From the NCBI RefSeq assembly GCF_004571075.1, contig NZ_SPQP01000006.1, forward strand, positions 62,001-126,000: DNA of 64,000 nucleotides, read 5' to 3'. Made by a program: the position numbers and the translations under genes. Position 1 is the stretch's first letter, and each line of letters opens with the position of its first letter. Source of the stretch: Blastococcus sp. TF02A-35. Lineage in GTDB: Bacteria; Actinomycetota; Actinomycetes; Mycobacteriales; Geodermatophilaceae. This document shows positions 9,631 through 33,547 of this stretch, piece by piece. Below the pieces are notes generated by a model. That model ran no database searches and was not told the origin of the DNA. It saw only the letters and a list, made by a program, of their open reading frames with translations.

Positions 9631-9816
9631 TGCCGGCGCAACGAGGCCCGGCGGTCCCGGGTTCCGGGGCCTCCCCCGATCGTGATCACCCTGTCATGGT
9701 GCGCGCACGCCGTCGGTGGGCGCGCACCCGGTTCCCCGCCGGGGACCCCCGACCACGTCCGGGCGGCCCGACCGCCATGATGTCGCAGGTCACAGCCCCA
9801 GGACGAGGAGACCACG

Positions 9817-11307: not shown

Positions 11308-11337
11308 GCCGGTGCGGGACGTCGGCGGGGCCCCGCG

Positions 11338-12036
11338 TCAGGCCGCCACGGCCCGGACCGACGCCGGAACGGGGGCGGGCGCCCGGAAGCCGGTGACGAC
11401 GAGCCGGTACGCCAGCGCCATCTCCCAGACGGCGACCACCACGGCGCCGAGGAAGCCCCACGCGGAGACCTGGTCGTAGACGCCGAACATGACCGCGACC
11501 GACGACGCGAGCACGAGCGGCCCACCCACGAGGCCGAGGACCGTGATGCCGCGCGGCACCAGGCGCGAGCGGTGCAGCAGCACGGCGAGCAGCAGGCTGT
11601 TCACGCCGATCACCAGCCCGGGACCGACCAGGAACGTCCAGTCGTGCACGGCGACGAGCGCCCGGGCCACGGCGACCAGCGCCTCGCCGTCGCCGCCGGT
11701 CGCCGTGCCCCGCAGGGTCACCAGCGACAGCGTGGCCACCACCCCGACCACGATGACGGCGGCCTCAAGCAGCCGCCCGCACACGTAGCCCAGCGCCATG
11801 CCCTCCCCGTGCTGCCGGACCACGGGGTAGAGGGTCACCGCCGTGCCGATGCAGGAGGCGGCGAGGACGACCTCCAGGAGGCCCCCGACCAGCACGCCGG
11901 TGCTCTCCCCGGCGCCGAGGACGAACTCCGCGTCCCCGAGCGCCGGCTGGTACAGCGCCAGCGCGATGACGGCGGTGACCGCCGCGACCACGAAGAACAC
12001 GCCCGCGACGACCGCGGTGGTCCTGGTCGACCCCAT
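11338..12036 (-). CDS. DUF4386-type integral membrane protein
   Basis: The 232-residue product has six to seven hydrophobic segments spread over its length and resembles the DUF4386 family of unknown function. The ATG at 12036 is preceded by GGAGGAG. It is divergent from a TetR regulator, and two matching palindromes lie between them, so its expression is very probably controlled by that regulator. By analogy with other TetR-linked membrane proteins it might be a stress or export function, but no substrate is indicated. Confidence 0.8.
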   Translation of the reverse strand: MGSTRTTAVVAGVFFVVAAVTAVIALALYQPALGDAEFVLGAGESTGVLVGGLLEVVLAASCIGTAVTLYPVVRQHGEGMALGYVCGRLLEAAVIVVGVVATLSLVTLRGTATGGDGEALVAVARALVAVHDWTFLVGPGLVIGVNSLLLAVLLHRSRLVPRGITVLGLVGGPLVLASSVAVMFGVYDQVSAWGFLGAVVVAVWEMALAYRLVVTGFRAPAPVPASVRAVAA

Positions 12037-12061
12037 GGGAACTCCTCCGGTAGCAGGATGT

Positions 12062-12078
12062 GGTGTACGGCGTACACC
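12062..12078. promoter_or_regulatory. Operator palindrome 1 (GGTGTAC-N3-GTACACC)
   Basis: This is a 17-base palindrome with perfect 7-base arms, GGTGTAC and GTACACC, around three central bases. It lies 25 bases upstream of the DUF4386 start codon, in the gap shared with the divergent TetR gene. The size and symmetry fit a TetR-dimer operator. Confidence 0.75.
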
Positions 12079-12095
12079 AACGACTCCGGACGCTA

Positions 12096-12112
12096 GGCGT
12101 ACGCTGTACACC
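12096..12112. promoter_or_regulatory. Operator palindrome 2 (GGCGTAC-N3-GTACACC)
   Basis: A second copy of the same palindrome differs by one base in the left arm. It lies 34 bp centre-to-centre from the first and 26 bases before the TetR start codon. The near-integral helical spacing would put two repressor dimers at an offset on the same stretch of DNA. Confidence 0.72.
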
Positions 12113-12138
12113 TCGTCAAGCACCGGCAGGAGGAGCAC

Positions 12139-12840
12139 ATGGCACCGGGGACCGCCCGCACCCCGCTGAGCAGCCACCGCCTGATAGCCGCCGCGGTCGA
12201 CCTGGCCGACGAGGCCGGCATCGACGCGGTGAGCATGCGGGCCCTGGCGCAGCGCCTCGGCGTCGTTCCCATGGCGCTGTACAAGCACGTCGCGAGCAAG
12301 GACGTGCTGCTCGACGGCATGGTCGACCTGGTCCTCGCGGAGGTCGAGGCCCCGGACCCGGCACTGGACTGGCGGGCCGCGGTCCGCGCCCGGGTGCTGG
12401 GCGCGCGCCGGGCCGTGCTCCGGCACCCGTGGGCGCGCAGGGCGATCGAGTCGCGCACCCACCGGACCGCCGTCGTGCTCGCCCACATGGACGCGGTGGC
12501 CCGGCACTTCCTCGACGGCGGCTTCTCCCCCGACCTGACCCACCACGTCATGCACGCCCTGGGCAACCGGATCTGGGGCTTCAGCCCGGAGCTGTTCGAG
12601 GAGGGGCCCGCCGGCGACGCGCCCGCACCGGACCCCGAGCAGCAGGCGGCCGTGGCCCGGGAGCTCGCACAGCGGTTCCCCGGCATCCTGGCGATCGCCA
12701 CCGCGGCGACCGGGGGCGACCTGTCGTCGGTCGGTCAGGGGTGCGACGAGCAGTTCGAGTTCGAGTTCGCCCTCGACCTGCTCCTGGACGGCGCCGAGCG
12801 GTTGCAGCGCTCCGGGTGGGCCTCCACCGCGCACCCGTGA
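12139..12840 (+). CDS. TetR-family regulator with TetR_C-type ligand domain
   Basis: This 233-residue protein has an N-terminal helix-turn-helix (IAAAVDLADEAGIDAVSMRALAQRLGVVPMALYKHV, about residues 16-55), closely matching classical TetR. Its C-terminal domain resembles the tetracycline-repressor C-terminal family. The ATG follows AGGAGG. Two near-identical operators stand between it and the divergent DUF4386 gene, so it probably represses both that gene and itself. The inducer is unknown. Confidence 0.91.
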   Translation: MAPGTARTPLSSHRLIAAAVDLADEAGIDAVSMRALAQRLGVVPMALYKHVASKDVLLDGMVDLVLAEVEAPDPALDWRAAVRARVLGARRAVLRHPWARRAIESRTHRTAVVLAHMDAVARHFLDGGFSPDLTHHVMHALGNRIWGFSPELFEEGPAGDAPAPDPEQQAAVARELAQRFPGILAIATAATGGDLSSVGQGCDEQFEFEFALDLLLDGAERLQRSGWASTAHP

Positions 12841-19168: not shown

Positions 19169-20311
19169 CTAGTCCGCTGGCGGAATGATCAGCGGTGTCG
19201 CCGCTGGGTCCACCGTGTCCTGTGCGCGGAGGACCGGCAGATCCGCGTCAGACATGCCGTCCATCTCCATCTGGATGCGCGCCGCCTCGTAGGCACTCCT
19301 GACGGACTGGCCGTCGGCGATGGCGGTGTAGAACCTCGCGGCGAAGGACATCGCGTCTGGGTCGCCGATCTCGTCGGACATGCCGATCGCCATCGGAACG
19401 ACGGTGAGCAGTTCGTCGAGGTGCCCAGTGGAGTGACAGGCGTTGAGGACGACCAGGACGGGAGGGTTGTCGACCGCTCCCATCGCGCGGGCGAACACCG
19501 ACTTCGTTATCACCTGGCCCAGGTTGTCACCGTCGGCCTCGGTGTCGAACACCAACACGTCTTCGTCAGCGTGCCCGGCAAAGTGGACCACATGGGGCTT
19601 GAAGCCGCTCATGCCGTCCAGAAGGTCGGCCCCAGTCGCGGCAAGCAGGGGCTCGATCTCCACGAGGTCTCGGAGCGTTGCCGCCTTGACCCCCTTCTTG
19701 ACCCTGCGGATCTCCTTGTCCACGCGCAGGTCCCCGTCGGAAGCGGCAGTCACATAGAGGATGCGAAGGCGCTCTACCTGCGGAGGGCGGATCTCTGCGA
19801 TTTGCTGCTGCAGTCGGCTCTCAGTCGCCGCCATCAGCGCCTGCGTCCGGGCTCGTTCTGCCTGCTGCTCTCGTTCCCTGGCTCGCCGCTCGGCCAACTG
19901 CAGCCGTTCGCGGGCGCGCTTCTCGTCAGCTTCTCGCTGCTTCTGCGCCCGCTGGTCGGCTAGCTGCCGCTGCTTCTGGACGCGCTGCTCATCGCTGCGC
20001 TGCTTGTCCAACGCCGTTGACAGTGCCCGGCTGAGGTCAGCTTCCTTCTTCGAGAACTGGGCGCTCTTGGTGCTGTAGCCCGCGGCTTTGGCTCCCAGCG
20101 TCAGCGCTTCCTTCTGCGCCGATTCGGCTTGCCGCAGGTAGGAACGTGCCATTGACTGCGAAGAGGCGCGGTCCGCCCTGGACCGGTACGAGGCCGCGTC
20201 CGCTTCCTTCTTTGCCTGCTTGACGCGTGCGTCTGCTGCTTGCTTGTCCGCCTCGGCGCGCTTCTTGACGGCCTCGTCGATCTGGCGGCGAATCTGCTCC
20301 AAACTGCTCAT
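19169..20311 (-). CDS. Coiled-coil CHAT (caspase-like) protease
   Basis: The first 175 of 380 residues are a long charged coiled coil (runs such as RAQKQREADEKRARERL). The rest is a CHAT protease domain of the caspase fold: a beta strand RLRILYVTAA, the catalytic His247 in HFAGHA, and Cys292 in LNACHS. Both catalytic residues are present. CHAT proteins are frequent effectors in bacterial conflict systems, where they cleave partner or host proteins on activation. It is the last gene of the lower-GC island, 114 bases below the preceding co-directional gene, and has its own strong ribosome site (GGGGGAGG). The target is unknown. Confidence 0.82.
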   Translation of the reverse strand: MSSLEQIRRQIDEAVKKRAEADKQAADARVKQAKKEADAASYRSRADRASSQSMARSYLRQAESAQKEALTLGAKAAGYSTKSAQFSKKEADLSRALSTALDKQRSDEQRVQKQRQLADQRAQKQREADEKRARERLQLAERRAREREQQAERARTQALMAATESRLQQQIAEIRPPQVERLRILYVTAASDGDLRVDKEIRRVKKGVKAATLRDLVEIEPLLAATGADLLDGMSGFKPHVVHFAGHADEDVLVFDTEADGDNLGQVITKSVFARAMGAVDNPPVLVVLNACHSTGHLDELLTVVPMAIGMSDEIGDPDAMSFAARFYTAIADGQSVRSAYEAARIQMEMDGMSDADLPVLRAQDTVDPAATPLIIPPAD

Positions 20312-21023: not shown

Positions 21024-21698
21024 GGTGGTAGGCCTCCAGGGTGGCGATGTAGTCGTGGACTCCGGGAGCTGCCCCTGTCAACGAGGTGGCGGCCGCGCGG
21101 GCGATGTCGGGACCTGCTCCCAGGTGAGTGCTCGCCAGTGGCCGCGGCTCTCCACGGCGGTGATTGGCAGCCGCCGGCCGCGGGTGAGGAAGACGAAGCT
21201 GGGCGCCGGCTCGTCCCGCCAGTGCTCGTACAGGCGGTCCAGCTGACGCTCCTGCTCGACGGCGAAGGTCTTGGCCTCTACCACGATCGTCCAACTGTGG
21301 CCGTAGATGACGAGGTCGGCCCGGGTTTCCTCCCGCTGCTCCTCCAGCACCACCCGCACACCGGGGTCCGCGCCGGACCCGTCGAGCTCCAGGTGATCCA
21401 GCAGCCCGTCGAGCACAGAGGGACCGAGGCCGTGGTGGCCGTCGGGACGGAGCAACCAGGCCAATCCCGCGGTCACTGCCAGCTCCCGGTACTGCAAGTC
21501 CAGGGCAGCGAGGAGCGTCCGCGGGCCACCCCGCCAGCGGCCGCTCACCAGCAGGGCCTGCTGGGCGTCCCGCATGTCCGCCAGCCGTGGCTTCCACTGG
21601 GACACAAGCGCGCCGGCGCGAGACCGCTCCGCCGCAGCGACGTGCTGCCAGGCAGATGCTGTCTCCTCGTAGCGCTCCTGCCACCCGCGCAGCGCAAT
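21016..21698 (-). pseudogene. PD-(D/E)XK nuclease-family protein, frameshifted as read
   Basis: Most of the protein reads in one frame (SQWKPRLADMRDAQQALLVS to LTWEQVP) and contains the nuclease core: D in RADLVIYG and the E-x-K of VVEAKTF, as in PDDEXK_4-type nucleases. The last 30 residues (DIARAAATSL...ATLEAYHRA) are in another frame. One extra base at the CCC/GGG run at 21109-21111 joins them. Coding-like sequence (ALRGWQERYEETASAWQ) extends above the first GTG (21605) to an ATT at 21698 with AGGA nine bases before, so the start is uncertain. It follows the response-regulator gene and overlaps the next. Confidence 0.65.
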
Positions 21699-21774: not shown

Positions 21775-22974
21775 TCACTGCTCGCGACCGCTGAGTAGTT
21801 CGCCAAGCTGATGCTGCGCTGATGTATCCCGCGAACCAGTGCTCAGATCCACATACTTCAGGCGGTCCGTCGTGCTCGTTTCACCATGACGGCTCTGCTG
21901 GAAGCCATCCACCACTCTCACGGTCCAGTCACCGGCCAGGGCACCGTCCGCCAGGACCAGCGGCCACATGTCTACATAGCCTCCGGCGGATCGCAGGTAC
22001 ACGCGGCCGGTGACCAGCGGAGTCGCGACATCCGCGCGCACCGGCGCCACGGACTGGGCTGCGCCAGCGAGAACTGCGAGGTCAACGCTGTAGGTGCTCC
22101 CCGTGAAAGCCATAGGTCCTGCGACCACCAATTCGAGAGGGGTGCTCGTCCGGGCGGTCAAGACGAACCAGTCCAGCCATCCGAGCACATCGGCCAGTGC
22201 CCCATCCCAGCCGCTGGCCGGGGCGCCGCCGCCATGCACCACATCGTTCCGGTGCTGTACGACGGCGTTCGCCTCGGTGACACATACGGCCTCGATCCAC
22301 CTGACCAGCACTCGGTCACGGAGCTGCGGAAGAAGACGACGGCAGATTTCCTGCCAAGTTCCAAAGCTCGGCCGCACCAGATGGGTGAGCACCGGCTGGT
22401 CGAGCGGCCCTTCGGTCCGTATGGCGGAGATGGCGGCGAGTGCACAAAATCGTGCAATCGCTTCAGCTGTCACAAGACTCGCCCGCAGTTGAGATTCCCG
22501 GTCAAGCGGCACCTGCATGCGCTGATACGGGAGAGCGATGGGGGTTGGAAGTTGATTGACGGCGAAGTCGACACGCGAACTTTGGCTCCGGGCGAGCACC
22601 TCTTGGATTCGCTCGGGGAGCTCGATGGCTGCCCTGTCTTTCATGACGAAGTCGTGCGCCAATCGCATCGCTTCGATCGTCTCAGACTGCCCACCCTCTC
22701 CAGACAGGACAAGCGTGTCGATGGCGAGACCACGCTCCGACAGCTCGCGGAGCAACCAGAGTCCTCCCCAGTCATCGGGCGGCATATGGAGGTCCACCAC
22801 GGCCAGGTCGAACGCTTCGGCGGAGAGTCGCGTCAGGGCGGCCTCGCCGTCGTCGGCGAATCTGCACTCGAAACTGCCCTTGGGTAGCAGCTTGGACAGG
22901 GTCACCGCCACATCTCTTTGGTCGTCGACGAAGAGAATGCGCGGGCGGCGGGGGCAGGGGCTAGCGGCGGACAT
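21775..22974 (-). CDS. Receiver-domain protein with C-terminal HEPN-like domain
   Basis: Residues 12-130 of 399 are a complete response-regulator receiver: acid pair D17-D18, phospho-acceptor D61 (VVDLHMP), S91 (VLSGEG) and K112. There is no DNA-binding output domain. Instead a helical region from about 165 carries HRNDVVHGG with R242 and H247, the Rx4H pattern of HEPN RNases, then an unassigned C-terminal region of about 120 residues. It starts four bases below the kinase stop, so it is the obvious phosphorylation partner. I infer an RNA-cutting or RNA-binding effector switched by phosphorylation. The HEPN call rests on the motif and helical context only. Confidence 0.75.
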   Translation of the reverse strand: MSAASPCPRRPRILFVDDQRDVAVTLSKLLPKGSFECRFADDGEAALTRLSAEAFDLAVVDLHMPPDDWGGLWLLRELSERGLAIDTLVLSGEGGQSETIEAMRLAHDFVMKDRAAIELPERIQEVLARSQSSRVDFAVNQLPTPIALPYQRMQVPLDRESQLRASLVTAEAIARFCALAAISAIRTEGPLDQPVLTHLVRPSFGTWQEICRRLLPQLRDRVLVRWIEAVCVTEANAVVQHRNDVVHGGGAPASGWDGALADVLGWLDWFVLTARTSTPLELVVAGPMAFTGSTYSVDLAVLAGAAQSVAPVRADVATPLVTGRVYLRSAGGYVDMWPLVLADGALAGDWTVRVVDGFQQSRHGETSTTDRLKYVDLSTGSRDTSAQHQLGELLSGREQ

Positions 22975-22977
22975 GTG

Positions 22978-25900
22978 CTACTTGTCTCGACTTTCGGCTT
23001 GGCCGTCTTCTGTCACGGTCGGCAGCGTCAAGAGCCAACCGGTTCCTTTCGCCCGCGGCGCAGGCTCAAGTTCACCACCGACACGACGGAGGGTCCGCCG
23101 GACCCCGAGGAGGCCCAGACCACTTCCTTCCCGCTTCCCGCTGGTGATCGCCCTCCCTGCTGCGAGCGCTTCGAGGACGGCGGCCGGGATACCGGCACCG
23201 GTGTCCGCAATCTCCAGCAGGACGACGTCGTCACCTGGCGAGGACGTGTAGTCGAAGGTGATCTCGCCGCCTGCAGCCATTGCCTGCTCGGCGTTCTTGA
23301 CCAGGTTGTCCAGCACCGCGCGGAGTGCACGCTCGTCGATCGCCACCACCGCAGGGGCCAGCGCGGGGGGAACAACGCGAATCTGTGTCGGTAGCCGCCG
23401 GATGAGGTCGCTGATATAGGCCTGCATAAAGGCAGCGAGTTCTGTGGTCCCTACGAGGTCGGCGGCCTCGTACAGCATGTCCGCGTCTCGCAGCCGCGAC
23501 GCGAGAGCGGCTGCTGCATCCATGTGCCGGCTGGCTGCGAGCTGCGCTTCCAGGCGTTCGGTCCGCGTGGGTGTATTTCGGTCGTACGCCAGCCGCGCAG
23601 CGGTCACCTCGTTCTTCAGGTCGTGGATGAGGCGCGCCAACTCAGCGTCGTAGTCATCAGCTGTCGGTTGGCCGTACGCGGCTCGCGTCAGCCAGTTTTC
23701 GTCGGCGTTGGGCGGCGACGTCTTCACGCTGAGCTGGATGGATCGTGCGTCGTGGGCGCCTACAAGCAGCGTGGGACAGGTCTCGCACAGGAGCCGCATC
23801 GTCAGGGTGTCCTTCACCTGGTCGAGCGGATGTCTCGCACAACTGACGGTCACTGAGACACCGGCCGCGGTCGTTCGGCCGTGCATCGACAGGCGAGGTT
23901 CAGGCTGTCCGGATAGGGCCGCGGCACACTCCTGCAGGGCCCTGAACAGGGCCGCCGCTGTGCGTGCATCGACCACAGCGCCATCCAGGGGGAGGTCGCG
24001 CTCGACCTGTAGCCGACGCCGATTGACCAGGAGCCAGTTCTCCAGGACCTGCGCAACCGGCTGATCCGCCCCGGCGGACATCCACACGCTCTGTGCCGCC
24101 GATAGCGCAACGAGTTGTTGCGTTGGCTCATCCCACGACGTAGCGGGCTCGTCGGCGTCGGCGGCTGCCGCTATCCAAGCCAGGAGTGCGGAGAGGACGT
24201 CCGTGAAGATCACCCGCTTCCGCGCGGTTTGCGAGACCTGACCGAAGTAGTCAGCCAGCGCGGCCTCAGCAACTGCATCGGGCCGCCAACCCGGACCGAT
24301 GACGTCGCACACGCCAGCGGCCCAACGACCGAACCCATGCCGATCGCCCTGCTGCACCATGCGCGCACCCAGTCGCCCGGCACGCTGCCAGCGCGGCCAG
24401 CGAGTCCGTGATGCTGCGAGCAGTTCAAGGTGCCGCACAAGGAGGAGGCGAGCGATCGTCGTGTCCGGCACACGCCCCGCGCCATCCGTCAAGATCTCCG
24501 CAGACGACCAGAAGTGTGCCGCCGCGATCTTGCGGGCAGCGGTCCGGGAAGCGCCGGCTCCCTCCACCGAGATCGGCTGTGCAAGGCCCCGCACGTTCAG
24601 CCGAACGCGGAAAGTGGAGTTGTGGTCCGGCCCCTCCCGCGAGCTGTCCTCCTCGACTTGAAAGTCGAGTTCGACAGAGAGCTCTTGCAGGCGGGTGACG
24701 GGGTCCACGAGGCTTGTGCTGCTCTGCGCACCCAGGAACTGGTGCACTTCGGCAGGGAGATGGCTCTCGAAGGTCGAATGGTCCGGCCACTGGATGTGGG
24801 ACGCGGCGAGCGTCGCCTGAACCATGTTGGCGATGATCTCGTCGGAGAGAGGTTGCCCTCGCAGTCCGGCGCTGAGTCGGACGAGCCTCCCGAGGCCAAG
24901 AGCCTCGAATATGGGTCGCAGAGCCGCGTCCGGGACGGTGAGCGCGACCGCGACATCGGGGTCGGGGTCGGTCGTCCGACTCAGCAGCACCGCCGCCCGC
25001 CGGCGCATCATCGCAGCGTTCAGAACAAAGCTCCCAAGGTTGGCGAGCATCGCGTTGCCGTCACGGTCGGTGTCTCCCTCACTGACGTTCTCGTACACCC
25101 AGGATCGGTGAATGAGGGCGCGGGCGAACGGCCCCGCATCGCGGCAGCCGAACCTGGCGGCGAGCGCGGCGTACCGCTCATCTACCAGCGGCCGCGCCGG
25201 TCGGCGCACGACCGGCTTCCCGCGCTTCGCCGGCGAACCCTGGTCCGCCAGGACGTGAGGCGCGTGTCGGGACAAGTAGTCGTGACACGCGAGTCGCTGC
25301 GCGTGCTTCTTCGAGCCGGCCTCCCCCCTTCCCGTTCGGCCGTCCTTTGTCGTGACTGTCACCGTGAAGACGGCGTCGTGGTCCGGGCCTGCCTGTGCGA
25401 CCTCGAATGCCGGTTTCAAACCTTGGGCATGCTGCTGAAAGAGCGACCGCACGTCCGCAGCTGTGGCTGAGGACATCGCGGCGTCGGCGTACAGCGTCTC
25501 TACAAACGTCCGTAAGCCGGCTCCCGCTACCACAAGAGACCACCAACCCACGACCTGCATGGCGACGGCATCGAACGTGCGAACGGTGGAACCGGACGCC
25601 ACCTTGTTGGCGGCCTGTGACGCCTCACCCCGACCAAGGTGAGCCCGGTTCTGAACTTGAAGGCTTTGCCCGAGACGTTCGCGGACCATGCGACCGACAC
25701 GATTCGCCTCTTCATCGCGTCGCTTCACGTCGAAGTTCGGAGCCGCCTTCGCTATGGCGCGTCGCAGTTCAACGTCGACTGCTGCTTTGCCGACGCTTTC
25801 TAGCAGCGACAGGCACACCGCACTCACATTTGGGAACTCGTCAGGACTTTCATAGAGACCGGATCGGTGCAGCGTCGCAACGGTCAGCCACTGGCGTTCC

Positions 25901-26025
25901 CTCGATTGAAGCTCCCCCAGTGCGTGCCCCATCGCTCGCTCCAGTTCTGCCCACGACATCACCTCACCGATGGCTTGCGGCAGAGCGACGAGCGGAGGTA
26001 GCGGAGATCCGGCCGGTCGGCTCAC
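22978..26025 (-). CDS. dsRNA-binding/pseudo-RNase III histidine kinase
   Basis: The 1015-residue protein has no TM segment. Read in order: RNase III-like domain 1 (about 45-185, HRS at 53-55); dsRBD1 (about 204-252, GPDH 213-216 and GSKKHAQRLA); RNase III-like domain 2 (about 285-410, LIHRS at 304-308); dsRBD2 (about 443-506, GPDH 465-468, SRTAARKIAAA); a helical linker; a DHp-like helix with H801 (HDLKN); and a HATPase domain (NLVKN 908-911, DTGAGIP 941-947, GSGLGLLG 968-975). In RNase III domain 2 the signature acids E, E, D are A325, A328 and S332, so it should not cut RNA. I infer a cytoplasmic dsRNA-sensing kinase. Its GTG overlaps the small ORF before it. Confidence 0.8.
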   Translation of the reverse strand: MSRPAGSPLPPLVALPQAIGEVMSWAELERAMGHALGELQSRERQWLTVATLHRSGLYESPDEFPNVSAVCLSLLESVGKAAVDVELRRAIAKAAPNFDVKRRDEEANRVGRMVRERLGQSLQVQNRAHLGRGEASQAANKVASGSTVRTFDAVAMQVVGWWSLVVAGAGLRTFVETLYADAAMSSATAADVRSLFQQHAQGLKPAFEVAQAGPDHDAVFTVTVTTKDGRTGRGEAGSKKHAQRLACHDYLSRHAPHVLADQGSPAKRGKPVVRRPARPLVDERYAALAARFGCRDAGPFARALIHRSWVYENVSEGDTDRDGNAMLANLGSFVLNAAMMRRRAAVLLSRTTDPDPDVAVALTVPDAALRPIFEALGLGRLVRLSAGLRGQPLSDEIIANMVQATLAASHIQWPDHSTFESHLPAEVHQFLGAQSSTSLVDPVTRLQELSVELDFQVEEDSSREGPDHNSTFRVRLNVRGLAQPISVEGAGASRTAARKIAAAHFWSSAEILTDGAGRVPDTTIARLLLVRHLELLAASRTRWPRWQRAGRLGARMVQQGDRHGFGRWAAGVCDVIGPGWRPDAVAEAALADYFGQVSQTARKRVIFTDVLSALLAWIAAAADADEPATSWDEPTQQLVALSAAQSVWMSAGADQPVAQVLENWLLVNRRRLQVERDLPLDGAVVDARTAAALFRALQECAAALSGQPEPRLSMHGRTTAAGVSVTVSCARHPLDQVKDTLTMRLLCETCPTLLVGAHDARSIQLSVKTSPPNADENWLTRAAYGQPTADDYDAELARLIHDLKNEVTAARLAYDRNTPTRTERLEAQLAASRHMDAAAALASRLRDADMLYEAADLVGTTELAAFMQAYISDLIRRLPTQIRVVPPALAPAVVAIDERALRAVLDNLVKNAEQAMAAGGEITFDYTSSPGDDVVLLEIADTGAGIPAAVLEALAAGRAITSGKREGSGLGLLGVRRTLRRVGGELEPAPRAKGTGWLLTLPTVTEDGQAESRDK

Positions 26026-26126
26026 GCGGCCACCTCAGCGGCCAACAGTTCAGCCTGCTGCATGACCAAGGCGGCGCCTTCCTGCTTGTTCGGTGGGCAG
26101 CAGTGCTTCGTCATCCGTGCCGTCAC
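26022..26126 (-). CDS. 34-residue small ORF linking hsdR and the kinase
   Basis: The GTG at 26126 overlaps the hsdR stop as GTGA, and its own TGA overlaps the kinase GTG in the same way, so it fits exactly between the two genes. It encodes a 34-residue peptide with a basic N-terminus, a CCPP motif and a C-terminal helix ending LLAAEVAA. An internal ATG at 26114 is an alternative start. The perfect fit argues that it is translated, at least as a coupling element. No family is recognised. Confidence 0.55.
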   Translation of the reverse strand: MTARMTKHCCPPNKQEGAALVMQQAELLAAEVAA

Positions 26127-29100
26127 GCGACCGTGACGTCGGGAAGAGCACGCTCTCTGACCTGGTGGAGAACGGTCACGATGCCGTCAACCTCTTCCTC
26201 GGAGAAGATCGAGTCCGGGCCGTGGGGCGCGCTGTCAGTGAACGGCGATTCGTAGAGACGGCCCACGTCCATGACCCCGTTCGCGGTCAGGTGCTCGACG
26301 ATGAGCTGGACGAACCGCATCTGGTTGACCGAGTACACGCCGTCGGACAGGTAGCGGTCGAACGCGGCGGTCGCGGCCTCGCGGTCGAGGCCAACCAGGG
26401 AGCGGATGAACAGCCCAAGCCCGTGGGACTCCTCGCGGGCGCGGGCGATGTCGACCTCGCTGCCGGCGCCGGACTCCACCAGCATCGCCTCCAGCGACGC
26501 CAGGTCCTCCGGTGTCAGCTGAAGGTTGCGGCGAAGACGCTGTATGGCCAGGTGGTCTTCGTGGTCGCGGAGGTAGGCCCGGGCCTTCGCACGGAACCGT
26601 TCCCAGTTGGTGCCGGGGGTGACGCCGGGCAGTTCGATGATGCTGCTCTCGCCGAGCTCGTCGGCGAAGTTGGAGTAGACGACGGCGCGCCGGGACTTCT
26701 CCACGAAGCGCACGAGCGCGCGGATTCGGCGCCGGGCGAGCTCGAGCATCGGGAGGGTGACGTCGACCCACCATTCGTCGCCGGACAGCTCCTCGAGGAG
26801 CTGCTGCTGGGCCTTGACCGAGGGGATCCCGGTCTGACCGAGCAGGGCGGCGGTGATGTCCTGCACCTGCGTGCGCAGCCGCTCGAACTGGATGGCATCG
26901 CCGTCGAGGCGGGCCAACTGCAGTCGCAGCAGGATCAGGTCGAAGCGTTTGGCGTCCTCGTCGTCGTCCCGCTTGGTGGAGGGCAGGCCGGCGAGGTGGT
27001 GCGCGATGTCGCCGGCCTTCTCCGGGGTCAGCGGGTGCCAGGCGCCCCAGTTGGAGTACGTCTCGACCCACTGCCGGGCCGGGCGGACCAGGAAGTTGTC
27101 GACGTTCATGCCGACCACCACCTCGTGCAGCGTCCAGGCCACGTCCACGCGCAGGCCGCGTTCGCTGACCTCACCCTGGCCGACCTCGGGGTGACCGCCG
27201 GAGTCGGCGCCGACGCCGGTCTTGTCCAGTGCGGCGAGCAGTCCCAGGCGGGCCTCGAACAGCCGCTCGGCGAGCGACTTCTGCAGCGAGCCGCCGGAGT
27301 CGGGCAGGTTCTGGCTGAAGAACTCGAGGTTGCCGCAGAAGTCGAAGACGTAGAAGTTCTTCTTGTCCTCCCCCGGCCCGTAGAGGTCGGGACACAGGCG
27401 GGTGCCGCGGCCGATCATCTGCCAGAACTTGCTCTTGGCGCGCACCAGTTTGAAGAAGACCAGGTTGACGACCTCGGGGACGTCGATGCCGGTGTCGAGC
27501 ATGTCGACGGAGATGGCTATGTGCGGCGCCTTGTCCTTGATCGAGAAGTCGTCGATGAGGTTCTGGGCGTAGGTCACCGAGTGGGTGATGACGCGGGCGA
27601 AATGGCCGGCGTACTCGGGGTAGTTGGCGTCGAAGCGCTTCTGGATGAACTCGGCGTGGGCCTGGTTCTTGGCGAAGATGATGCTCTTGCCGAGCCGGTC
27701 GCCGCCGGCGACCTTGTGGCCGTTCTGCATGAGGGTGGCGAGGACCTTGTCGACGGTGTCGGCGTTGAAGAGGAACTTGTTGAGCTCCTCGGCCGCGACG
27801 GCGTCGGGGATGTCGCCGTCCTCGTTCCACTCCAGGGAGTCCCAGTCGTCCTTCTCCTGCTCGCTGAGCTCGTTGTAGCGGATGCCTTCCCGGAGGAACT
27901 TGGTGGGCACCGACACCGCCACGGGGGGCACGAGATAGCCCTCGGCAACGGCCTCGTCGAGGCTGTAGGCGTCGGTGGGCACCCCGTCTTCGAGGTTGAA
28001 CAGCGTGTAGGTGTTGCGGTCGACCTCGTCCTTGGGCGTGGCGGTCAGGCCGACCAGCAGGGAGTCGGACCAGGAGAAGATCGCGCGGTACTTCTGGTAG
28101 ACCGACCGGTGGGCCTCGTCGACGACGATAAGGTCGAAGTAGCCGGGCCCGAACAGCCTCCTACCCGCGTCGGTCTCGTTGATCAGGTTCATCATGGTCG
28201 GGTACGTCGAGACGTACACCCGGCCGTCGGCGACCTGCTCGGTGACCAGGTTGACCGTGGTCGCGCGGGGCAGATGGGTCTTGAACGCCCCGACGGCCTG
28301 GTTGACCAGGGCGGTGCGGTCGGCAAGGAACAGCACCCGCTTGACCCACCCGGCGCGCATCAGCTGATCGACCAGCGCGATGACCGTTCGGGTCTTGCCG
28401 GACCCGGTGGCCATCACGAGCAGCGCGGCCCGCTGCTTGGCGGTGAACGTCGCCCCCACTGTCCGGATCGCGCGCTGCTGGTAGTGCCGGCCGACGATCG
28501 CCTTGTCGATGTCCGCGTCAACGAGCGGCAGGCGGCCGGTGCGGCGCTGCACCATCAGTTCCAGCTCGTCGGCGGTGAAGAAGCCCTCGACCCGGCGCGG
28601 CGGGTAGCCGGCGGCGTCGTCCCACAACCAGGTCTGGTAGCCGTTGGTGTACAAGATCACCGGCCGGCGGCCGGTCATCTGCTGCAGGCAGTCCGCGTAC
28701 AGCTTGGCCTGCTGTTGGCCTACCGCCGGCTCGGCGGTGGTCTTCTTCGCCTCCACCACCGCGAGCGGCAGCCCGTCGCTGCCCCACAAGACGTAGTCGA
28801 CGAAGCCTTTGCCCTCAGCGTTGGGCATGCCGGTGACCTCGAACTCGCGGTCCCGAGCATCGGTGAGCTGCCAGCCCGCCTCGCGGAGAAGTTCGTCGAT
28901 GATGAGGTCGCGGGTCTGAGCTTCGGAGTAGTCGTGCGTGTCAGTCAGCGTGGTTGCGGCTTGCGCCGCCTTGATCTGCTGGCGCAGCGCTTCGATCTCG
29001 GCGTCCTTCGCCGCCGCAAGGTCGTCCCGCTCCTTGAGCGCACGGGCATTGGCCTCGTCCTGCTGGCGGAACTTCTCCGCAAGCTTGACGACATCGGCTC

Positions 29101-29542
29101 GACTTAGCGGCGCCTGACTACCTGCGAGCTTCGGATCAAACACCGCCCCGGTCGGCACTGCCGCCGGGTTGGCGGAGTAGCGGAACGCCGTCCACACGAC
29201 CACGTGGTGCAACTCCCGCAGTACATCCACCGCGACCCGGGCGGGGATGGGCTGCACGTCATGAACCGCGCGGTTGCCTAGCCTGCGGAGCAGATTGAGC
29301 TTCTGCCCAATGCCGACGCCAACCCGCCGCTGAAAGGCTGGCTCGTTGATCCGGGCCGACAGGTCGTCCTTGTACGGCTCGGGCAACGCGTCGACGTCGT
29401 AGATGAGCCCGACCACCTGCTCCGCCGCCCGGCGGGCATAGAAACAGGCCGACCGCGGGTCGGAGGCGAGGTAAGCCTCGGCCTGTACGCAATCCGCGTG
29501 GACCTGCGGCCACTGAGCCTCAACGAAGCCAAAGTTGCTCAC
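26123..29542 (-). CDS. hsdR: Type I restriction enzyme, R (motor/nuclease) subunit
   Basis: The protein has 1139 residues. An N-terminal DUF4145-like helical domain comes first (about 1-130), then a short coiled coil, the HsdR nuclease core (D in KGFVDYVLW and EAK in VVEAKKT near 263), and a superfamily 2 helicase: Walker A ATGSGKT near 378, DEAH near 475, motif III GLTATP, motif VI IGRGTRL. A long helical C-terminus follows. It translocates and cuts unmethylated DNA with HsdM and HsdS. I chose the GTG at 29542 because GGAGAG lies eight bases upstream; a longer start at 29593 is less likely. Confidence 0.94.
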   Translation of the reverse strand: MSNFGFVEAQWPQVHADCVQAEAYLASDPRSACFYARRAAEQVVGLIYDVDALPEPYKDDLSARINEPAFQRRVGVGIGQKLNLLRRLGNRAVHDVQPIPARVAVDVLRELHHVVVWTAFRYSANPAAVPTGAVFDPKLAGSQAPLSRADVVKLAEKFRQQDEANARALKERDDLAAAKDAEIEALRQQIKAAQAATTLTDTHDYSEAQTRDLIIDELLREAGWQLTDARDREFEVTGMPNAEGKGFVDYVLWGSDGLPLAVVEAKKTTAEPAVGQQQAKLYADCLQQMTGRRPVILYTNGYQTWLWDDAAGYPPRRVEGFFTADELELMVQRRTGRLPLVDADIDKAIVGRHYQQRAIRTVGATFTAKQRAALLVMATGSGKTRTVIALVDQLMRAGWVKRVLFLADRTALVNQAVGAFKTHLPRATTVNLVTEQVADGRVYVSTYPTMMNLINETDAGRRLFGPGYFDLIVVDEAHRSVYQKYRAIFSWSDSLLVGLTATPKDEVDRNTYTLFNLEDGVPTDAYSLDEAVAEGYLVPPVAVSVPTKFLREGIRYNELSEQEKDDWDSLEWNEDGDIPDAVAAEELNKFLFNADTVDKVLATLMQNGHKVAGGDRLGKSIIFAKNQAHAEFIQKRFDANYPEYAGHFARVITHSVTYAQNLIDDFSIKDKAPHIAISVDMLDTGIDVPEVVNLVFFKLVRAKSKFWQMIGRGTRLCPDLYGPGEDKKNFYVFDFCGNLEFFSQNLPDSGGSLQKSLAERLFEARLGLLAALDKTGVGADSGGHPEVGQGEVSERGLRVDVAWTLHEVVVGMNVDNFLVRPARQWVETYSNWGAWHPLTPEKAGDIAHHLAGLPSTKRDDDEDAKRFDLILLRLQLARLDGDAIQFERLRTQVQDITAALLGQTGIPSVKAQQQLLEELSGDEWWVDVTLPMLELARRRIRALVRFVEKSRRAVVYSNFADELGESSIIELPGVTPGTNWERFRAKARAYLRDHEDHLAIQRLRRNLQLTPEDLASLEAMLVESGAGSEVDIARAREESHGLGLFIRSLVGLDREAATAAFDRYLSDGVYSVNQMRFVQLIVEHLTANGVMDVGRLYESPFTDSAPHGPDSIFSEEEVDGIVTVLHQVRERALPDVTVA

Positions 29543-29597
29543 TGCCGACTCTCCGAAACGCGTCGCAAGACCATAAGGGCACCGGAACGACAAGTCC

Positions 29598-30749
29598 TCA
29601 TAGCCGCCCCGACACCGCGGCAGCCTGTAGGCAGTCCTCCAGCTGACTCAGAGCCTCATGCGAACGCAGAGCCCCTAGCCTGGCCGCTCTGATCGCGCCC
29701 AATCGCCGCACGAAGTCCAACTGCTGGGCCATTGGGGGAGCGAAGACCGAGAAAGCCTTGATGTCCTTCAGATTCACGGTCTTCTGGGCGGCACCCCGGG
29801 CAGCCACGTCGGCTTGCCTCTTCACCTCTGGGGCCGCCAGCTGCGCAGCCAAGAACTCGGGATGGATAAGTTCGCGCCGCGGCTTGAGATGCGCAATGTG
29901 TCGCTGAAACGCAAACTTCCGCTCGCTACGAACAACAACGGGGACACCGTACGAGCCGACTGTGGAGTAAAGGACATCTCCGACCTCGATGGGACAGCGA
30001 GCCGTCAGTTCTGCATGCGTATCGCCGGAGATGAACTTACTCGTCGTAAAGTTGATCTCACCTGACGTGATGTTGCTGACGAACAGAAATGGGTGCCCCT
30101 CCTTCGCCCATTCCGGGGACTGGTGGGTGCCATCTGTAATCCGCACACACAGATCTGCCAGCGGCAGAAGTCTTTGCGGGCCCCCGCCGAACATGTCTCG
30201 AAACACGGACTGAGCAAGATCCTCAAGTCGGCCTACAACTGCAGCGCGATTCATCGACAAGGCGCCTGCCCGATCTAGGATCGTCGCGATACGTCGCTGC
30301 TCATCGAGGGTTGGAACTGGAATCTTGACGCGGGCGACCGTAGACTTTGAGAGCTCTTTGAACGTGGCACCATTGCCGAGCGACTGCAAATAGGCCTTGC
30401 TACCCCTCAGCCAGTGATACAGGTACTTCGGGTCCAAGACGTCGCTATCCGGCATCAGGCTCTTGAAGCCTTGGTTCGTCGCCATCGGAATCGTGTTGAT
30501 CGCGACGTGGCCGATGGGGGCCCGGGAGCTGAGAAGCACCGAACCCACTGGAAGGAGCTTCGCCGAGCAACTGGCAAGCCCAGCCGCTGTCAGCTTGCGC
30601 GGCGTGGAATCGATGTACGCCCCGCTGAGCTGACTCAGATCGGCCGGCGTGGCCCAATCGATATCTCCGCCCCAGAACTCAGGGACAGAGCTACTGGGCG
30701 TCGCTCCCGAAACAATCTCACAACACTCCCCAAGCGCTATCATCTTCAT
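29598..30749 (-). CDS. hsdS: Type I restriction-modification specificity subunit
   Basis: The 383-residue HsdS has two target-recognition domains, each followed by a conserved helix (LDEQRRIATILDRAGAL near 155 and PMAQQLDFVRRLGAIRAARL near 345). It sets the DNA sequence recognised by both methylation and cutting. The ATG overlaps the hsdM stop as ATGA. Base composition is lower in GC than the flanking chromosome, especially in the TRDs. The recognition sequence cannot be read from the protein. Confidence 0.93.
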   Translation of the reverse strand: MKMIALGECCEIVSGATPSSSVPEFWGGDIDWATPADLSQLSGAYIDSTPRKLTAAGLASCSAKLLPVGSVLLSSRAPIGHVAINTIPMATNQGFKSLMPDSDVLDPKYLYHWLRGSKAYLQSLGNGATFKELSKSTVARVKIPVPTLDEQRRIATILDRAGALSMNRAAVVGRLEDLAQSVFRDMFGGGPQRLLPLADLCVRITDGTHQSPEWAKEGHPFLFVSNITSGEINFTTSKFISGDTHAELTARCPIEVGDVLYSTVGSYGVPVVVRSERKFAFQRHIAHLKPRRELIHPEFLAAQLAAPEVKRQADVAARGAAQKTVNLKDIKAFSVFAPPMAQQLDFVRRLGAIRAARLGALRSHEALSQLEDCLQAAAVSGRL

Positions 30750-32206
30750 GAAAGCATTGCCTTCAGATCTGCCAGGTCCTTCCGAATCTGATCTTCCAGG
30801 CTTTCAATCTCTGCGACGATCTCCAACGGCGGACGCTGTTCACTCTCATGGTGGACAACCTGCTGGTAGCGATTCAGCGAGAAATCGTAGTCTTGGGCGG
30901 CAATCTCGGACTTCGGTACGCAGAAACTGCGCTCGGTACGCTCACGCTTTCGCTCCTGGGCATTCCGCTCCTGCCATCGTGCGAGCACGTCGGGAAGGTC
31001 ATTGGCTTCGGTTGGGGTGCGCTTATCGTCGAGACTGAAGCCGTCTGCCTTTACGTCGTAGAACCACACGTCCTCAGTACCGCCACTGTTGGTCTTGGTG
31101 AACAGCAGGATGGCTGTGGAGACGCCGGCGTAGGGCCTGAAGACCCCGGACGGGAGCTTGACCACGGCGTCGAGCTTCTGGTCCTCGACCAGGATCCGCC
31201 GTAGGGCCTTGTGCGCAGTTGACGACCCGAAGAGAACTCCGTCGGGCACGATGACCGCTGCCCGCCCACCAGGCTTGAGCAGCCGCAGGAACAGCGCGAG
31301 GAAGAGCAGCTCGGTCTTCTTGGTCTTGACCACGCGCTGCAGGTCCTTCGACGTTGACTCGTAGTCGAGGCTGCCCGCGAATGGTGGGTTCGCCAGAATC
31401 AGCGAGTAGATGCCTTCCTCGCCCGCCGCTCCCTCGGACAAGGAGTCGCGATAGCGGATGTCCGGCTGCTCGACCCCGTGCATCAGCATGTTCATGCTGC
31501 CGATGCGCAGCATGGTGGAGTCGAAGTCGTAGCCGTGGAACATGCTGCGGTGGTAGTGCTGCCGCTGCTGCTCATCGGTCATGACCGTGGGGTGCTCGTG
31601 GCGCACGTACTCGGAGGCGGCGACGAGGAAGCCCGCGGTGCCGCACGCAGGGTCACAGATCTCGTCCGACGGCTGGGGAGCGGTCATCGCGACCATGAGC
31701 TGGATGATGTGCCGGGGAGTGCGGAACTGGCCGTTCTGACCGGCTGAGGCGATCTTGCTGAGCATGTACTCGTAGAGGTCGCCGTTGGTGTCGCGGTCTT
31801 GCATGGGAACGTCGTCGAGCATGTCGACGACGCGGGAGAGCAGCGCCGGGGTCGGGATGGTGAACCGGGCGTCCTTCATGTGCTCGGAGTAGGTGGACCC
31901 GTCGCCGCCTAGCCGGCGCAGGAACGGGAAGACGCCTTCGCCGATGACCTGGTGCATGACCCCGGGCTCGAAGTCCTTGAACCGGGACCAGCGCAGGCCC
32001 GCCTCGCTGGGCTGGAAGATCGGGTCCTCGATCGGCTTGCCGGTGCGGTTGGCCTTGCGCTCCTTCAGCGTCTGGAGGTCGTCGAGCCGACGGATGAAGA
32101 GCAGGTAGGTGATCTGCTCGATGACCTCGAGGGGGTTGGAGATGCCTCCGGACCAGAAGACGTCCCAGACTCTGTCGATCTTGCTCTTGAGCTCGCCCGT
32201 GATCAC
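30746..32206 (-). CDS. hsdM: Type I DNA methyltransferase subunit
   Basis: This 486-residue N6-adenine methyltransferase has an N-terminal helical HsdM_N domain (about 1-130), the AdoMet motif CDPACGTAGFLVAA near 185, and the catalytic NPPF in ILANPPFAGS near 272. With HsdS it methylates host sites. It starts at GTG, which overlaps the end of a 39-residue small ORF, and it precedes hsdS and hsdR in the same operon. Confidence 0.94.
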   Translation of the reverse strand: MITGELKSKIDRVWDVFWSGGISNPLEVIEQITYLLFIRRLDDLQTLKERKANRTGKPIEDPIFQPSEAGLRWSRFKDFEPGVMHQVIGEGVFPFLRRLGGDGSTYSEHMKDARFTIPTPALLSRVVDMLDDVPMQDRDTNGDLYEYMLSKIASAGQNGQFRTPRHIIQLMVAMTAPQPSDEICDPACGTAGFLVAASEYVRHEHPTVMTDEQQRQHYHRSMFHGYDFDSTMLRIGSMNMLMHGVEQPDIRYRDSLSEGAAGEEGIYSLILANPPFAGSLDYESTSKDLQRVVKTKKTELLFLALFLRLLKPGGRAAVIVPDGVLFGSSTAHKALRRILVEDQKLDAVVKLPSGVFRPYAGVSTAILLFTKTNSGGTEDVWFYDVKADGFSLDDKRTPTEANDLPDVLARWQERNAQERKRERTERSFCVPKSEIAAQDYDFSLNRYQQVVHHESEQRPPLEIVAEIESLEDQIRKDLADLKAMLS

Positions 32207-32435: not shown

Positions 32436-33077
32436 TCGGCAGACGACGTCGACGAGTTCCAGCGCAACTGGGCCTTCGACCGGAAGGAGAGCGGCCTCGG
32501 CAAGAGCGTGACCAGCAAGTGGATCTGCCCCGCCCGCGCCGGGCGCGCCGGCTGCCACGCCCTCGGCGCCGCGCAGGGCGAGGCGGCCACCCAGCTGGGG
32601 CTGCCGATCATCACCCCGCCGGAGGACCACACCACCCGCAAGTCCTGCACGAACAAGACGATGGACTTCACGCCCGACCCTGACGACGCGAACCACGAGC
32701 GCAAGCTGATGCAGCGTGAGTACTACGGCAGCCGCCGGTGGCGGCGGCTGTTCAAGCGGCGGGCGCTGGTCGAGGGAGTGTTCGGAATCCTCAAGAACGC
32801 CAGCCGGCAGCGACTGCGCCGCGGTCAGAACCGACTCCCCGGCCTGGCGATGGCCTCCATCGTCGCCGCGGTCAAGGCCAGCGTCTTCAACGAGGAGCAG
32901 CTCCGCAGCTGGCACGACCGCCCCGCCCGCGGCCCGGCCGACCACCCGCTGCTGCAGCCCGACCCGCCCTACTGGGGCTTCCGCGACCTGACGAAGGAGG
33001 AGGCGAAGGCCGTCGACGCCGAGCACCTGCGTCGCCTCCGCGGCGGCCACATGCAGCCGGTCCTCGAGGCTGCCTGA
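32436..33077 (+). pseudogene. Transposase remnant (C-terminal part only)
   Basis: The frame from about 32436 reads like the end of a DDE-type transposase: a zinc-like segment KWICPARAGRAGCHA, then the RRALVEGVFGILKN block that carries the last catalytic glutamate, and LAMASIVAAVKASVF. The N-terminal half with the first two acids is absent, and upstream sequence in the same frame does not look coding. I could not find terminal inverted repeats. It marks past mobile-element activity between ssrA and the defence operon. Confidence 0.65.
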
Positions 33078-33091
33078 CACCTGCGTGAGAC

Positions 33092-33131
33092 GACGAACCG
33101 CCCCGGACCTGGAGGTCCGGGGCGGTTCGTC
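33092..33131. terminator. 19-bp hairpin between transposase remnant and ssrA
   Basis: A perfect 19-bp stem (33092-33110 with 33113-33131) with almost no loop lies 14 bases after the transposase stop and 43 bases below the ssrA 3' end. It can terminate transcription from both sides. Confidence 0.78.
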
Positions 33132-33174
33132 AATCTACGAAGAGTCTCCGCACAATCTGCGAAGACCTCAGGGG

Positions 33175-33547
33175 TGGAGGTGGCGGGAATCGAACCCGCG
33201 TCCTTCGACGCATCACCAGGGCTTCTCCGAGCGCAGTCCGCGTTGCCTCTGCTCGACCCCGTCGATCATGCGGACAAGTCGACGTGACGGGCCCAGTCGC
33301 TGTGTGATGTCCCGCCCGCGCCCGCGACCGGCACGTGCGGTGAGTCATCTAGCTGATGCCAGGATCCGGGCCGATGACGAACCCGGGCTGACAGACTCGC
33401 CTAGCTGCTATCAGGCAGCGAGAGCGAAGTCGCGCTGATTGGAATCGGCGCTTGTGTGTTTTCCAACGCGTGGTTAACGAGCTCATCGTTGGCTTCCTCG
33501 GCTCGCTTCCCCTGGTCACCCGACCGAAGTCGAGACCATTCACCCCC
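33175..33547 (-). ncRNA. ssrA: Transfer-messenger RNA
   Basis: The 5' end GGGGGTGAATGGTCTCGAC pairs with the 3' acceptor CACCTCC, giving the tRNA-like domain, and the T arm CGGGTTCGATTCCCG is intact. The resume codon GCC is at 33449 and the tag reads ADSNQRDFALAA before TGA (33413-33411), ending in the ALAA degron typical of actinobacteria. CCA is not encoded exactly (CCC follows the discriminator), so it must be added. It works with SmpB (40818) to rescue stalled ribosomes. Confidence 0.96.

Follow-up and report, generated by a model that had tools for sequence, protein, structure and literature searches.

A stretch of 64,000 nucleotides from the genome of Blastococcus sp. TF02A-35 (contig NZ_SPQP01000006.1, positions 62,001 to 126,000; "the window") encodes a sensor histidine kinase (22978–26025, minus strand) whose sensor half consists of two RNase III-like domains, each followed by a double-stranded RNA-binding domain (dsRBD). 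The gene directly downstream (21775–22974, minus strand) encodes a response regulator that combines a receiver (REC) with a HEPN-like output domain. Judging from sequence comparison, the two genes may form a defensive two-component system, in which an RNA duplex acts on the kinase and the kinase on the HEPN regulator, a reading to which we give slightly less than an even chance. In a bolder reading, which we hold to be slightly less probable, the pair would sense double-stranded RNA (dsRNA) in innate immunity by means of a phosphorelay, with the kinase as amplifier and a phosphate-gated HEPN RNase as executioner, and would be a bacterial analog of PKR and OAS-RNase L that arose by convergence. 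Direct sensing of dsRNA is a pillar of animal antiviral immunity; to our knowledge, no bacterial two-component system that relies on it has been described.

The original prediction for this DNA concerned the kinase alone, which it interpreted as a dsRNA sensor that autophosphorylates. As an inference from sequence this is sound, and the fusion of dead RNase III modules to a kinase stands, but the partner gene and a sister branch of relatives without a kinase had been overlooked. With a REC and HEPN-like regulator directly downstream, the lone sensor becomes a candidate sensor-effector system.

Tandem RNase III-dsRBD modules

The open reading frame (ORF) of the kinase runs from 26025 to 22978 on the minus strand, begins with GTG, and encodes 1015 amino acids, which are arranged as two pseudo-RNase III-dsRBD modules, a middle region, and a histidine kinase core. 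Both the ORF, for which no strand had been given, and the motifs previously noted in its product proved to be real: GSKKHAQRLA at residues 237–246, SRTAARKIAAA at 493–503, N324-A325-M-L-A328-N-L-G-S332, and H801 within HDLKN are all present. The first module comprises pseudo-RNase III domain 1 (25471–25908; residues ~40–185) and dsRBD 1 (25261–25452; residues ~192–255), which has canonical GPDH and SKKxA motifs; the second comprises pseudo-RNase III domain 2 (24721–25173; residues ~285–435) and dsRBD 2 (24505–24708; residues ~440–507), all on the minus strand.

A profile of the sensor half, built from seven relatives, matches the structure of Mycobacterium tuberculosis RNase III (2a11) at positions 18–216 (2.8e-21) and a Ribonuclease 3 structure (7r97) at positions 264–483 (2e-12), which bears out the predicted presence of two RNase III-like and dsRBD modules. 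Domain 1 lies within the former match and dsRBD 2 within the latter. The Pfam model dsrm matches the whole protein at 3.8e-13 (best stretch 194–249), with a second stretch that passes an E value of 1 but not of 0.01; the NCBIfam model RNaseIII matches at 5.9e-17 (best stretch 298–507), which is under its curated cut-off. Across the 23 members of the family (see "Distribution and pairing"), dsrm is matched in all and Ribonucleas_3_3 in 20 at an E value of 0.01. The two modules also match each other in profile comparisons, both in the RNase III part (96.9% probability, E 3e-10) and in the dsRBD part (97.8% probability, E 5e-12); in three comparisons that involved regions elsewhere in the family, the probabilities were 0.1–0.3%. 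A complete RNase III-dsRBD unit has thus been duplicated in tandem to form the sensor.

The catalytic acids of Escherichia coli RNase III are E41, D45, D114, and E117 (PMC6121014). None of the 23 members has kept all four in either module, and the maximum is one, which is present in 17 members in module 1 (none in the other 6) and in 14 members in module 2 (none in the other 9). The E117 position of module 1 is acidic in no member, the E41 position is Glu or Asp in 14 of 23, and one member (L057) has Asp at the D45 position. Module 2 has Ala or Gly in place of E41 and Ser or Ala in place of D45 throughout (23/23); its D114 position is Asp in 14 members, and its E117 position is Gln in 22 (Arg in L015). 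The residues of the window protein at the positions of E41, D45, D114, and E117 are E76, K80, A153, and M156 in domain 1, the last two assigned by their distance from G160, and A328, S332, N400, and Q403 in domain 2.

The original prediction had described both domains as catalytically dead and had listed the replacements A325, A328, and S332 in domain 2. The replacements are present, and to them can be added the loss of the second metal-binding pair (N400 and Q403); neither module has a complete site, but domain 1 of the window protein does retain an acid, E76, at the E41 position. To judge by the alignments, both RNase III sites are catalytically dead, in a pattern in which residues for cutting were lost and those for binding retained. 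The RNA-contact residues of dsRBD 1 are kept almost without exception (G213, P214, A242, and A246 in 23/23; H216 and K240 in 22/23; K239 in 20/23). In dsRBD 2, the His of the corresponding motif is conserved in 23, the Gly in 22, and the Pro in 20 members; position 494 is basic in 22, and the next position is variable. The substitution E117Q is reported to abolish cleavage by E. coli RNase III in Mg2+ and to leave the binding of dsRNA uncompromised (PMC6121014). The retention of dsRBD 1 and the Gln at the E117 position of module 2 together suggest that the ligand of the sensor is RNA. Core residues of the RNase III fold (H53, S55, and G79 in module 1; H306, S308, and G331 in module 2) are invariant in all 23 members.

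The same genome encodes a separate, normal RNase III, so the kinase protein is not its replacement. In a set of 26 loci of housekeeping RNase III, extracted by the motif E[RK]LE[FW]LGD, which is therefore present by construction, the pattern of the second pair of acids was matched in 22; in the other 4, the Asp and Glu were recognized by eye.

Kinase core and middle region

The histidine kinase core (23002–23664, minus strand; residues ~788–1008) matches Pfam HATPase_c at 3.4e-14 and has intact H (H801), N, G1, and G2 boxes, in agreement with the complete kinase core described originally. Among the 23 members, HATPase_c is matched in 12, which equals the number of kinase-bearing loci. The H-box HD[LI]KN is present in all 12, and the N, G1, and G2 boxes are visible in the alignment of the 12 sequences, with one change from Asp to Asn in the N-box (L081). 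The hydropathy of the protein (maximum of 1.74 in a 19-residue window; three windows above 1.6) fits the claim that it is soluble. The kinase protein matched no PADLOC model at an E value of 0.1.

The middle region (23671–24468, minus strand; residues ~520–785) includes a segment (23704–24069; residues 653–774) that may have a degenerate fold like that of the catalytic and ATP-binding (CA) domain of kinases. In a low-confidence model, the segment aligns with 3a0t (VIA-align Z 12.1, root-mean-square deviation 2.8, 116 residues aligned); when its profile was compared with that of the active CA domain, the probability was 0.1%, without a sequence match. The model is a structural hint of a possible second, dead kinase domain at this position. 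The AlphaFold models of kinase and regulator were each computed from two-sequence alignments (window and L015). The kinase model shows, at low confidence, the alpha-beta-beta-beta-alpha order of a dsRBD at residues ~189–254 and 442–507; the 50 VIA-align matches listed for it include none to an RNase III, dsRBD, or HEPN structure.

A response regulator with a HEPN-like output domain

The response regulator (399 amino acids) follows three nucleotides after the stop codon of the kinase. Its receiver (22600–22941, minus strand; residues ~12–125) matches Pfam Response_reg at 9.2e-14 and has intact D17, D18, D61, S91, and K112. The same residues are intact in all 12 regulators of the family, each of which matches Response_reg. 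The ~270 residues that follow the receiver have no Pfam match in the window regulator. They include the HEPN-like output domain (22165–22497, minus strand; residues ~160–270), with the motif R242-N243-x3-H247, and a C-terminal region (21778–22137, minus strand; residues 280–399) that is partly conserved in alignments of 6 and 12 members and matched no NCBIfam family. The R-N-x3-H motif, which is of the HEPN type (R-x4-H), is present in 12/12 regulators, and the output region also carries a PS-x-GTW motif.

Several HEPN models match the output region. The PADLOC model RTasHEPN matches 6 of the 12 regulators (best 1.8e-4), and the stretches matched in the window, L022, L057, L076, and L087 fall within residues 164–265. 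CARF_HEPN models match once each in L057 and L076 (residues 232–277), Pfam HEPN_RiboL-PSP matches 6/12 regulators (best 0.0068), and HEPN_MAE_28990 matches 2/12 (best 0.25). Because separate HEPN families agree and the motif is invariant, the output domain is likely HEPN. Other PADLOC models with matches of comparable strength were rejected: SduA, which matches 6/12 regulators (best 0.005), because the six matches shown are located in the receiver (residues 7–112), and PDC-M60B (12/12) and PDC-M60C (9/12), whose matches, where shown, also lie in the receiver.

Distribution and pairing

The family comprises 23 loci after the removal of two duplicates, L026 (same match as L023) and L019 (sequence contained in L015). 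Whole-genome searches were confined to the phylum of the window, and the actinobacterial spread of the family is partly by construction. A contig scan of all bacteria, which reaches close relatives only, found three relatives, one of them full-length (L015 from Geodermatophilus pulveris, 65%), and a plasmid search found six records with relatives. When the whole protein was searched against 396 genomes, the only full-length match was its own copy, and the 13 further matches were confined to the kinase core. A search of the class matched 381 of 394 genomes, of which four with E < 1e-100 (own genome included) were kept; the remainder were taken for housekeeping RNase III, as judged from the 26 loci mentioned above. 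The family of G853 has relatives in 3 of 200 genomes and the genus of G182, presumably Streptomyces, in 12 of 295; five of these 12 are kinase-bearing. The family of the window has matches in 3 of 112 genomes and two true carriers, as the match in G466 is an ordinary RNase III followed by a gene that looks like a mutM type.

The kinase core is present in 12 of the 23 loci (window, L015, L021, L022, L057, L059, L076, L077, L081, L082, L083, L087) and absent from 11 (L023, L024, L025, L058, L078, L079, L080, L084, L085, L086, L088). The domain order of the window protein, with sensor modules joined to a kinase, recurs in distant relatives. All 12 kinase-bearing loci encode the REC-HEPN regulator directly downstream, and in 10 of them a start codon that overlaps the kinase stop codon by 4 nucleotides is available; no regulator gene was matched near any of the 11 kinase-less loci within the DNA fetched. 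The profiles were built from 6 of the 12 regulators and 7 of the 23 sensors, and adjacency was not a criterion. The strict pairing is not by construction, because the members were found via the sensor half or the whole kinase and not via the regulator. The exact probability of such a split arising by chance is 7e-7, but the two groups represent two sides of one branch. H-box, receiver residues, and R-N-x3-H persist together in loci whose kinases have as little as 25% identity with that of the window, and in a set of 197 genomes, the output domain was found twice, both times together with the kinase.

The members of the kinase-less sister branch have the same tandem of dead RNase III-dsRBD modules and may have alternative partners. 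An N-terminal NRW-(M/V)-G segment opens three of these orphans (L023, L024, L025). In L058 (8083–11002, minus strand), the orphan ORF is immediately preceded by an NHWVGIV segment in a different frame, which resembles the beginning of other orphans and looks as though a frameshift had cut it off. A frame directly adjacent to the orphan of L085 (7174–7767, minus strand) is related to one in the vicinity of the L025 orphan, where a 2'-5' RNA ligase family protein is annotated (11895–12497). L085 and L081 have further receivers without a match to the output domain (~7 kb away from the orphan in L085), and L058 and L081 have other kinases; these were taken to be unrelated to the system.

Genomic context

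The kinase gene begins 97 bp past the end of hsdR, on the same strand and downstream of a type I restriction-modification operon (26123–32206, minus strand) that consists of hsdM (30746–32206), hsdS (29598–30749), and hsdR (26123–29593). Operon and kinase pair are part of an island of low guanine-plus-cytosine (GC) content at 20–34 kb (62–68% vs. 71–80% outside), which also contains, downstream of the pair, a PD-(D/E)XK-like frame and a CHAT-like gene, as well as one frame without assigned function. A tmRNA gene (33173–33547, minus strand) is located at the edge of the island. Its position and the GC content suggest integration at the tmRNA; a repeat of the 3' end of the tmRNA that would mark an attachment site was found nowhere else in the window. 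ARAGORN reports a second, overlapping tmRNA* (32577–33264, minus strand) with an odd tag peptide, which is probably spurious. The product of the CHAT-like gene (19169–20311, minus strand; 380 amino acids) has an N-terminus that is charged and resembles a coiled coil; its match to CHAT is weak (5.6e-5) and narrowly misses the Pfam cut-off. The PD-(D/E)XK-like frame (21078–21605, minus strand; 175 amino acids) matches PDDEXK_4 and PDC-S26 and is perhaps a truncated gene; the PDC-S26 models have 351–415 residues.

Among the other kinase-bearing loci, L059 has, at 9466–12720 (minus strand) and ~4–7 kb from the kinase, a SMODS/CD-NTase-like nucleotidyltransferase and a DUF6602 gene, L015 is accompanied by PDDEXK_13/REase-ARP and PLD-like genes, and L021 by a CHAT-TPR gene and integrases. 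Of the orphans, L024 is located near BREX, L023 near a methyltransferase-helicase pair, and L025 near a type ISP restriction gene.

Proposed function and alternative explanations

In the defensive two-component system proposed here, the soluble kinase would use its dead RNase III-dsRBD array to recognize RNA that is double-stranded or structured, for instance phage RNA duplexes or phage transcripts that overlap. Since two RNase III domains come together around a duplex, binding would join or rearrange the halves of the kinase. We assume that this activates rather than inhibits the kinase, which would autophosphorylate at H801 and then donate the phosphate to the neighboring regulator at D61. 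In the phosphorylated regulator, the HEPN domain would be set free or dimerize, and this putative RNase would attack cellular RNA, which would end the infection but sacrifice the cell. The presumed antiviral role is supported by defense-type neighbors, the low-GC island, and patchy presence. If it is true, a small system of two genes would link one candidate ligand via one phosphate step to one candidate RNase, dead RNase III domains would acquire a new role as receptors, and dsRNA would be added to the signals that histidine kinases read. It would also bear on the question of which phage-made signal is detected by bacterial immune sensors.

Several results weigh against a defensive pair with an RNase output. 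The RTasHEPN match of the window regulator (residues 164–250) is weak (0.017), six of the 12 regulators have no match to this model, and most of the HEPN-matched stretches are short (26–46 residues around R-N-x3-H), which slightly lowers our confidence. A sequence search of the PDB with the output domain returned just two matches, to an ABC transporter (E 1.2 and 1.8); NCBIfam detected no HEPN in 6/6 output regions, and profile-profile comparisons with HEPN templates gave no match in two runs, in each of which two of the three templates were mis-framed. The AlphaFold models are poor (predicted local distance difference test of 38.1 for the kinase and 40.9 for the regulator) and confirm no fold. 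On the sensor side, dsRBD 2 is partly degenerate in its third RNA-contact region, and a Sinorhizobium meliloti RNase III mutant of the E117Q type still cuts partially in Mn2+ (PMC6121014). The correlation of kinase and regulator is located on a single branch of the tree (support 89/92) and represents few independent events. Phage records and viral contigs contained no relative. Eight of the kinase loci, inspected by eye only, have mainly transposase-like or ordinary genes in their vicinity. There are no conserved defense neighbors, and the most widely shared frames, which are ABC-transporter-like, reach four further loci; without a widely conserved neighbor, the pair looks self-contained and mobile.

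The pair might instead serve the ordinary regulation of RNA metabolism or development, with a kinase that reads structured host RNA and a regulator that binds RNA or protein and does not cut. Many actinobacterial kinases control development, kinase and receiver of the pair are canonical, and both the short, weak HEPN matches and the several loci that have no obvious defense neighbor by eye would be in line with such a role. Its distribution is patchy and of an accessory kind (12/295 genomes in the genus of G182, five of them kinase-bearing, and 2/112 in the family of the window), and carriage on plasmids, defense-type neighbors at several loci, and the invariance of R-N-x3-H, which is typical of nuclease HEPN domains, also make this explanation unlikely. 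A guard or decoy of RNase III is a somewhat weaker candidate. RNase III acts as a dimer, and the dead modules, which have kept the core residues of the fold, would not sense RNA as such but pair with the separate normal RNase III of the host, or serve as bait for phage proteins that target it, so that any interference would act on the kinase and, through it, on the HEPN effector. A pure protein decoy, however, would not need the RNA-contact residues that dsRBD 1 has kept almost without exception, and the E117Q-type substitution in module 2 is compatible with RNA binding.

The short distance between hsdR and the kinase gene in the window, and the proximity of orphans to the methyltransferase-helicase pair, BREX, and the type ISP restriction gene, are also consistent with a PrrC-like back-up of restriction, in which kinase and HEPN regulator would monitor the neighboring type I enzyme and be set off by its inhibition by phage. 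We consider this improbable, as a type I restriction-modification operon is present at only one of the four kinase loci that were annotated or scanned with the model library (the window, not L015, L021, or L059) and the sensor modules are of an RNA-binding type.

Comparison with known systems

Detocs consists of three genes, the third of which encodes a second receiver protein. The pair shares with Detocs the logic of antiphage two-component signaling, with a kinase and a receiver-effector gene in all 12 kinase loci, but no second receiver (A5 profile, E 1e-5) adjoins the pair in the 12 fetched loci; one is located ~6 kb away in L081. Moreover, Detocs has a PNP effector, whereas that of the pair is HEPN-like, with no PNP model among the Pfam matches of the 12 regulators, and the sensor of the pair is a pseudo-RNase III/dsRBD array. 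In the absence of a third gene and a PNP effector, the pair was not assigned to Detocs, from which it is set apart by gene count and effector and not by sequence comparison. Detocs has been described as two-component signaling against phage (PMC9966839).

No histidine kinase with a dsRBD or RNase III domain was found among the titles and abstract openings listed in searches of the open-licence literature, and none is described in passages of papers on BREX, DefensePredictor, conflict systems, and death domains. A figure legend of DefensePredictor lists HATPase and REC domains among the predicted systems, and its tables may include a kinase-receiver candidate. A type of protein described near BREX and BR systems joins a Schlafen-family RNase to a minimal histidine kinase and a winged helix-turn-helix (wHTH) domain (PMC12839542). 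It likewise ties a kinase-type domain to a predicted RNase effector in a defense setting but is a single protein with an RNase of another family, and the passage that describes it mentions no RNase III, dsRBD, or receiver.

The unit that occurs twice in the sensor is, by profile match, that of class I RNase III (2a11, 7r97); by contrast to these enzymes, all 23 members lack a complete catalytic site and have the modules fused to a kinase or to a kinase-less C-terminal region. HEPN domains fused to RNase III and dsRBD have been reported from cyanobacteria, and the animal protein CXorf38 combines HEPN and dsRBD (PMC3710099). The ingredients are the same, but these fusions are single polypeptides without a phosphorelay, whereas the pair is split into two proteins, its RNase III is dead, and kinase and receiver are placed between sensor and HEPN.

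A CBASS cyclase senses structured phage RNA (PMC10686824). Its immunity is started by RNA, as that of the proposed pair would be, but proceeds via a cyclase and a cyclic nucleotide instead of a kinase and a phosphate. The pair also differs from the anticodon nuclease PrrC in that it senses via a kinase, and its link to restriction-modification is seen in the window copy only. PrrC is a HEPN-type nuclease encoded next to a type I restriction operon and has an NTPase sensor of its own.

In vertebrates, PKR combines dsRBDs with a kinase, and RNase L is a HEPN-fold RNase downstream of OAS. The proposed pair would follow the same logic with a His-Asp phosphorelay in place of a Ser/Thr kinase or 2'-5'-oligoadenylate (2-5A), a resemblance for which we claim shared ancestry only of the dsRBD and possibly of the HEPN fold.

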